64,000 nt of DNA from Borrelia sp. RT5S (lineage in GTDB: Bacteria > Spirochaetota > Spirochaetia > Borreliales > Borreliaceae): the NCBI RefSeq assembly GCF_021165755.1, contig NZ_CP088936.1:620001-684000 (forward strand), read 5' to 3'. A program made the translations under genes and the position numbers. Under the pieces are notes generated by a model that did no database searches, was not told where the DNA came from, and worked only from the letters and a program-made list of their open reading frames with translations. This document shows positions 38,919-54,713 of this stretch, in pieces (the stretch's first letter is position 1; each line of letters begins with the position of its first letter).

Positions 38919-38991
<73 letters not shown>

Positions 38992-52815: not shown

Positions 52816-52830
52816 ACTTCTAGTGTTTAT

Positions 52831-52902
52831 TCCCCTATAGCTCAGTGGTAGAGCGGGTGGCTGTTAACCACTAGGTCGGAGGTTCAAGTCCTTCTGGGGG
52901 AG
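52831..52902 (+). tRNA. tRNA-Asn (GTT)
   Basis: Acceptor TCCCCTA/TGGGGGA, anticodon GTT in loop CTGTTAA, T-loop GGTTCAAG. Its 3' part overlaps the end of rnmV on the opposite strand by 19 bases. Confidence 0.95.
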
Positions 52903-53432
52903 TTTTGTTTTTTTTGGTGAATTATCTCTTCTATTTCTTCTCGTTTGATTCTAAAATAGTTTATCCTTTCAAGTAGTCTTTTGTTGTTACCATTTCCTAA
53001 TTGAAAGTGTTGTTGTACCTTCTCTCTTCTTTCCCTAGATTGGCTTCCTGTGAGTCCGAGCTCTATTAAATCACTTAAGGTTAGGCCCTCTTTAGCTCCT
53101 CTTGCGTAGAAAGTGGTCACTTTTTTTAAAGCTTTCATTATTTCAAGTCTAGAGGACATCTCAACCTCTTTATTTTCACTTTCAAGAAGAGCATGCTTAA
53201 TATTGTCCTGATTTGAATACTTTAGCCTTCTGAGTATCTGTTTCCTAATTAAATCTCCTGCCTTATCGCTATCAGTAAAGATAATTATTCCATTTGTTGC
53301 TAGTGCTCGCTTTAGTACTTTGATAGTTTCTGTGCTAATGTGAAGTCCACCAGTTTCAATTACAGTACACTCAAATATTTCTTTTAGTCTCCTAGCATCA
53401 TCTTTACCTTCAACCACAATGATTTCTTTTAT
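52884..53432 (-). CDS. rnmV: Ribonuclease M5-like TOPRIM protein, probable non-canonical start
   Basis: RNase M5 matures the 5S rRNA ends. The TOPRIM core is clear: VVEGKDDARRLKEIF, then IETGG and IIFTDSDKAGDLIRKQI, and a basic C-terminal domain. The only standard start, GTG 53417, falls inside the first beta strand, because family members begin 'MKIKEIIVVEGxDD'. Codons upstream of it, back to the apeB stop, read ILEIIKEIIVVEGKDD, so the true start must be one of ATT 53444, CTG 53441, ATA 53435 or ATA 53432; the last is given here as it yields IKEIIVVEG. Its C-terminal codons and stop lie in the antisense of tRNA-Asn. Confidence 0.8.
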   Translation of the reverse strand: MKEIIVVEGKDDARRLKEIFECTVIETGGLHISTETIKVLKRALATNGIIIFTDSDKAGDLIRKQILRRLKYSNQDNIKHALLESENKEVEMSSRLEIMKALKKVTTFYARGAKEGLTLSDLIELGLTGSQSRERREKVQQHFQLGNGNNKRLLERINYFRIKREEIEEIIHQKKQNSPRRT

Positions 53433-53444
53433 TATTTCCAGAAT

Positions 53445-54713
53445 TTAATTCCAATTTTCAAAAAATGATCTGAGCAATTTGATTGCATTTATGTGATCCG
53501 ATATCGCGATTGTTTCTCTTAAAGAGTGCATTGCCCACATTGGGGTTCCAATGTCTATGGTTTCAATACCTGTTTGAGCGTTTGTAATAGGTCCAATTGT
53601 GGTTCCGGCATTAACATTTGCTTTCAATATTATTTCTTGAACTTGAATGTTATTTTTCATGGCCAACGATTTAAGTTTTGCACAGCCATTTGCTGTTGTT
53701 GCATATTTAAAATTAGCATTACTTTTAATCGTCACACCTTTCCCTAGGCTTACTTCATACTGTGGGTCGTGTTTATCCGTGTATCCAGGATGCACACCAT
53801 GCGCAGCGTCCATTGAAATGTGGAATGATTTGTTTAGCTTTATTAAGTGTTCTTCTCTTCCCAAGTTTAAAGCATAATCAATTCTTTCTAATACTTCTGT
53901 TAATAGTTGTGAATCAGCTCCTCTTGAAGTTAAAGACCCAATTTCCTCATTGTCGAAAAACACAGCCACTTTGTTTTTATTGTTGTTTGTATGCACGAAT
54001 GCGTTCATGATGGCGTGACATCCAGATTTGTTATCAAGATTTTTTGATGACAAAAATTCACCTTCACTACCAATGATTTTAGAGGCTTCAGACGCTGTAA
54101 AGAGTAGATCACAAGATAGGAAATCTTTCTCCGATATGTTGAGTTTCTCCAGAATTATTTCCTTAATGCTTTTCTGGATGCTAGTAATAACTATAATATT
54201 TTCATGGGTATCATACGCAAATCCTTCATTAATCCTGCGGTTTAGGTGAATTGCAACATTTGGTATAATGCCAATGTTTTCGATCGTTATTAGTTCTGAA
54301 TTAACCATCCCATCTTTATTGAAATACACAACTCCTGCTAGGGTTAAATCTCTGTCAGTCCAAGTTGAAATGATTGGTCCCCCATAAACCTCAATGTGAT
54401 TTGAAAATACATTCCCTTTATTCTTTATAGACTCTATTTTAAGTTTTAACCCAGGGCTGTCAGAGTGTGCCCCTGCTATTAAAAACGGTTCTTGTATTTT
54501 ATCGGTATTAATGTTAAATGCAATAAGAGATGTGCCTTCTTTTTTAATGTAGTAACATCCTGTTTTTAAGATCCACTTATCATCAAGTCTTAATTCACTA
54601 GCATTAAGGTAATGTACTAATTTTTGTTCAATGTAATTTACTAGATGATATGGGGTTATGCTTGTATCTAATAAATTTCGAAAATATGAAATATCTAAGG
54701 TTTGATCATCCAT
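53445..54713 (-). CDS. apeB: M18-family aminopeptidase
   Basis: A cytoplasmic dodecameric zinc aminopeptidase of 422 residues. Metal and active-site motifs: GAHSDSPGLKLK, DNEEIGSLTSRGAD, and SMDAAHGVHPGYTDKHDP. M18 enzymes remove acidic or neutral N-terminal residues from peptides; with PepD it would serve the use of imported peptides. The start ATG 54713 follows GTAGGAGGAC. Its stop codon is directly followed, in the same frame, by rnmV. Confidence 0.92.
   Translation of the reverse strand: MDDQTLDISYFRNLLDTSITPYHLVNYIEQKLVHYLNASELRLDDKWILKTGCYYIKKEGTSLIAFNINTDKIQEPFLIAGAHSDSPGLKLKIESIKNKGNVFSNHIEVYGGPIISTWTDRDLTLAGVVYFNKDGMVNSELITIENIGIIPNVAIHLNRRINEGFAYDTHENIIVITSIQKSIKEIILEKLNISEKDFLSCDLLFTASEASKIIGSEGEFLSSKNLDNKSGCHAIMNAFVHTNNNKNKVAVFFDNEEIGSLTSRGADSQLLTEVLERIDYALNLGREEHLIKLNKSFHISMDAAHGVHPGYTDKHDPQYEVSLGKGVTIKSNANFKYATTANGCAKLKSLAMKNNIQVQEIILKANVNAGTTIGPITNAQTGIETIDIGTPMWAMHSLRETIAISDHINAIKLLRSFFENWN

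Follow-up and report, generated by a model that had tools for sequence, protein, structure and literature searches.

Results

The junction of apeB and rnmV

Comparison of rnmV across the Borreliaceae places the start of its translation, with high confidence, at a CTG codon three nucleotides behind the stop codon of the aminopeptidase gene apeB. Reinitiation by ribosomes that have terminated at apeB is the mechanism that we favour at this codon, with moderate confidence. Positions are those of the window, the whole stretch of 64,000 nucleotides of Borrelia sp. RT5S DNA that was analysed, and the relevant features are as follows.

53445..54713, minus strand: apeB, M18 aminopeptidase (NF002759/PRK02813, 477 bits), stop codon TAA at 53447-53445
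53450..53452, minus strand: GGA, a weak Shine-Dalgarno-like match 8 nt ahead of CTG, within the final codons of apeB (predicted duplex -3.3 kcal/mol)
53442..53444, minus strand: spacer ATT (3 nt) between the apeB stop and CTG; variable among genomes (ATT, AAT, AAA, AAC, ACC, CAT)
53439..53441, minus strand: CTG, putative start codon of rnmV (all 17 intact genus copies have CTG, 17 loci of the sister genus TTG and a pseudogene CTA)
53415..53417, minus strand: GTG, earliest canonical start codon of the frame, lying in the first TOPRIM strand; rejected as the start because 16 of the 17 genomes have GTA or GTC instead
52884..53441, minus strand: rnmV, encoding RNase M5 (TIGR00334, 159 bits; domains Toprim and DUF4093); 185 codons counted from CTG, then a stop codon

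On the minus strand apeB ends in AAT TAA and is followed in frame by ATT CTG GAA ATA ATA AAA GAA ATC ATT GTG GTT GAA GGT AAA GAT GAT, and the first ATG, GTG or TTG in the rnmV frame is GTG 53417-53415. The first-pass annotation of this DNA had described rnmV as lying in frame behind the apeB TAA with no canonical start codon before that GTG, and the sequence agrees.

The assignment of rnmV comes from a profile search (TIGR00334, 159.3 bits against a cut-off of 110.65, E = 9.4e-47, model positions 2-170 of 174), with an N-terminal Toprim domain (E = 3.2e-11) and a C-terminal DUF4093 domain (E = 3.6e-18); the protein carries VVEGKDD and TDSDKAG. By these matches rnmV, present as one copy in the genome, is the gene of RNase M5, the enzyme that trims 5S rRNA. 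Its dN/dS of 0.12-0.26 over six genus pairs denotes purifying selection and thus a working gene. RNase M5 of B. burgdorferi (bb0626) is already known (PMC10319736). Among 296 Spirochaetota genomes, matches above the family cut-off are confined to the Borreliaceae, which suggests that the gene was either acquired by transfer or lost from the rest of the phylum; spirochaetes therefore give no outgroup from which to read the polarity of TTG versus CTG. At its 3' end rnmV shares 20 nt (window 52884-52903) with a tRNA-Asn gene of opposite orientation (52830-52903), so that the last RnmV residues are encoded by sequence antisense to the tRNA.

Conservation of the start position

rnmV was located in all 36 genomes of the family, with one decayed copy (G011, within the genus). 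The codon at 53441-53439 is CTG in each of the 17 genus genomes with an intact rnmV, although its surroundings vary: over the same genomes the preceding codon takes six forms (ATT, AAT, AAA, AAC, ACC and CAT) and each of the two codons that follow takes four. In the sister genus the equivalent position is TTG in all 17 genomes read (13 loci and four more; the count leaves out one genome, G033). What is constant across the family is therefore NTG, as would be predicted for a start codon. The genome is that of a reptile-associated member of Borrelia in the narrow sense, the first 10 kb of its second contig matching a plasmid of Borrelia sp. RT1S (host Varanus salvator) at 96% over 98%; by inference the TTG genus is the Lyme group. 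A sequencing error, raised earlier as something that could explain the missing canonical start away, is out of the question with 17 independent genus genomes devoid of ATG, GTG or TTG at the conserved position.

Conservation of CTG as leucine does not account for this pattern. In 724 ortholog pairs between this genome (G000) and a genus-mate (G002), compared on unjoined 20-kb stretches of genome and so on genes that lie whole within one stretch, a CTG leucine codon of G000 is matched by CTG in G002 in 37 of 1337 aligned cases (2.8%). Within apeB and rnmV over the 17 genomes, where CTT provides 20% of leucine codons versus 4% for CTG, the best other CTG columns are CTG in 6/17 and 3/17 genomes, and of 37 all-leucine columns three have a single codon throughout, two of them CTT. 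Against a background of 2.8%, CTG in 17/17 genomes argues that the codon is held as a start and not as leucine, a near-cognate codon kept in relatives beyond amino-acid constraint. The 17 genomes likewise share two other codons without variation, the ATT of KEII and one AAA; both are common codons of conserved residues. A scan of the 724 pairs for genes with no canonical start, with ORFs nested in longer ones removed to exclude antisense shadow ORFs, left rnmV as the sole gene whose homology begins at a CTG common to both genomes and which has no alternative start.

The length of the N-terminus is consistent with this. In the solved RNase M5 structure 6tpq the IKE motif begins at residue 3 (aligned to query residue 5); from CTG it would begin at residue 4, with one residue more before it than in 6tpq. 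No canonical start lies at the conserved N-terminus, as is expected of a gene with a conserved near-cognate start. Read by the initiator tRNA, CTG would give fMet-Glu-Ile-Ile-Lys-Glu-Ile-Ile-Val-Val-Glu. A relaxed initiator tRNA was considered as a reason for the use of CUG and found no support: the tRNA-Met at 38919-38991, which we take to be the initiator from its anticodon stem, has normal GGG:CCC pairs.

Other starts, a fusion protein and decay

No canonical start codon precedes GTG 53417 in the rnmV frame, yet this GTG is present in this genome alone, and initiation there would delete IKE and with it most of the conserved first strand; of the readings considered it is the least probable. 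The first-pass annotation had made the same point about the first TOPRIM strand, and the 6tpq alignment bears it out. That annotation had left the choice among ATA, ATT and CTG open, and invariance now singles out CTG. Both ATT and ATA are known near-cognate starts, ATT being used by lepA in the Borreliaceae, but the columns of ATT 53444 and of the first ATA hold non-start codons (AAT, AAA, CAA, CAC) in most relatives, and two relatives have CTA or TTA in place of the second ATA. The ATT of KEII does not vary, but a start there would cut the first TOPRIM strand and lose six residues that are otherwise conserved. Initiation at any of these ATT or ATA codons is accordingly improbable. Two relatives (G007 and G012; loci L009 and L016) differ from the rest by a one-base change in spacing that puts an in-frame TTG three codons upstream of the conserved CTG, and in these two genomes the TTG could serve as an alternative start.

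Read-through of the apeB TAA to yield an apeB-rnmV fusion protein had also been offered as an explanation, and the frames of the two genes do match in this genome and in 14 others of the genus. They differ, however, in G007, G012 and the sister genus; moreover the residue that would be encoded directly behind TAA varies, and the apeB stop is kept in all genomes. As an in-frame product is impossible in many relatives, a fusion is unlikely to be the purpose here, and we regard it as very improbable. Of the two properties of the junction for which an alignment over Borrelia genomes had been suggested, then, the lack of a canonical start at the conserved position holds throughout (17/17) and the frame relation does not (15/17). 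We give as little credence to the view that rnmV is no longer expressed in the lineage and that its missing start is a mark of decay; one genus genome does carry a decayed copy, but the 17 others are intact, with the low dN/dS given above and an invariant CTG.

Spacing, Shine-Dalgarno pairing and coupling to apeB

The distance from the apeB stop to the rnmV start is 3 nt (in frame) in 15 of the 17 genus genomes, 2 nt (out of frame) in G007 and G012, and 2 nt in each of the 13 loci measured in the sister genus. Over these 30 loci the gap is thus 2 or 3 nt, with both genes on one strand, the position expected of a coupled pair; the coupled pairs galT-galK and rplK-rplA have a spacing of +3 nt (PMC12548453). 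The rnmV leader is predicted to pair with the 16S tail (GGATCACCTCCTTTCT) at -3.3 kcal/mol, the 25th percentile of 605 gene starts of this genome (median -6.0); for the sister-genus copies, with TTG, the prediction is mostly -4.9 kcal/mol. The strong or extended Shine-Dalgarno sequence that commonly, though not by strict definition, compensates for a near-cognate start was not found at rnmV. Because GGA falls in apeB codons, selection on it as a Shine-Dalgarno element is inseparable from coding. CUG is itself a poor start: PMC11497404, citing earlier work, gives its output in E. coli as ~0.86% of that of AUG and its share of bacterial starts as 0.024%.

Given a weak codon and a weak Shine-Dalgarno match, the stop codon 2-3 nt upstream is the sole constant favourable feature of the site, and this points to termination-reinitiation from apeB. 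With CUG a poor start and GGA the one local signal, most rnmV initiation would probably be the work of ribosomes fresh from termination at apeB that reinitiate shortly behind its stop, and rnmV output would be low and tied to translation of apeB. Against a low output stand the abundant rnmV reads in one RNA-seq table for B. burgdorferi (PMC6117026), though this is a species of the TTG genus. Reinitiation at the apeB TAA had been among the earlier suggestions; it fits the conserved spacing and the weak Shine-Dalgarno match. The main rival accepts CTG as the start but has ribosomes initiate there independently, through GGA and an unstructured leader, with no coupling to apeB. The 8-nt distance of GGA is indeed normal, and the structure predicted near the start is weak (-2.6 to -4.7 kcal/mol), but three quarters of gene starts in the genome have a stronger Shine-Dalgarno match, CUG is the least efficient of the NTG codons, and the constancy of the gap to the apeB stop speaks against it. 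We consider independent initiation possible, and less probable than coupling.

Discussion

Comparison with other non-canonical starts

Conserved near-cognate starts where two genes closely adjoin are of a known kind; rnmV is unusual in combining CTG with a weak Shine-Dalgarno match. In E. coli, infC and pcnB are initiated at AUU, and the effect of this start has been shown by experiment. Like rnmV they are single-copy genes that act in translation or RNA metabolism and have an inefficient start with an expected low output; they differ from it in the codon, which for rnmV is a CUG deduced by comparison of genomes, in the experimental standing of the effect, and in that infC of Borrelia has ATG. 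The first-pass annotation had likened the rnmV start to infC as an expression brake. The brake is an idea by analogy; infC, which begins with ATG in this genome, was rejected as a parallel case of a non-canonical start here. The CUG of Caulobacter dnaA was likewise rejected as a precedent, since it is not used in vivo (PMC8443254).

In S. aureus, cvfC1 and ccpN have conserved AUU/AUA starts with extended Shine-Dalgarno sequences, mapped by ribosome profiling (PMC13009471). They resemble rnmV in that near-cognate starts are held across a genus, and differ in that their starts were profiled and lie behind extended Shine-Dalgarno sequences, whereas the rnmV start, behind a weak one, is deduced from sequence comparison. 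In galT-galK and rplK-rplA, as in apeB-rnmV, stop and start are 3 nt apart on one strand; there, however, dependence on upstream translation has been shown (PMC12548453), whereas for rnmV we infer it.

Non-canonical starts occur elsewhere in the family, in lepA and probably in one further gene. The lepA (EF4) gene (L082:5139-6950, minus strand; loci L172-L201) has an ATT start behind a strong Shine-Dalgarno sequence, invariant in 30/30 Borreliaceae loci; an AUU start for B. burgdorferi lepA was proposed in 2007 (PMC1780047). Like rnmV it keeps a non-canonical start across the same bacterial family, but its Shine-Dalgarno sequence is strong and lies just upstream, whereas rnmV has only GGA at the stop of the preceding gene. 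A putative N-acetylmannosamine-6-phosphate epimerase gene (nanE-like; L109:13912-14622, plus strand; loci L202-L231) has ATT behind GGAGG in most loci and probably starts there; in one relative (L224) an ATG adjoins the ATT.

A decayed copy

In one genus genome (G011; L041:1500-2090) rnmV is a pseudogene disrupted by stops and frameshifts; its neighbours on either side, apeB and the tRNA-Asn gene, are intact. The codon at its start position is CTA, a natural control that, as one case, is suggestive of CTG being the start in the intact copies. This natural loss shows that RNase M5 can at times be dispensed with, and RNase M5 mutants of L. monocytogenes grow (PMC12774634). Loss in G011 and viable mutants elsewhere fit an enzyme that is needed in small amounts or not at all, in which case a weak start would be tolerable without any regulatory purpose.

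Implications

In the literature that was searched no description of a CTG start in Borrelia turned up; original genome annotations may already use CTG. Of the UUG starts reconstructed for ancestors, 2,468 in number, one had switched to CUG (PMC5622118), and together with the rarity of CUG this makes it uncommon for a genus to keep CTG as the start of all its intact copies of a gene. Gene callers restricted to ATG, GTG and TTG will truncate or miss rnmV in this genus. The comparisons made here are consistent with a low rnmV output through reinitiation coupled to apeB, and the rnmV CTG is a natural case in which to test whether the choice of start codon is loosened by reinitiation. More speculatively, the genus may depend on a CUG initiation made workable by post-termination reinitiation and not by a strong Shine-Dalgarno sequence, with the level of RNase M5 set by apeB translation and by the stringency of start-codon selection. 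If true, the genus-wide CUG start of an rRNA-processing enzyme would link ribosome maturation to the fidelity of initiation.
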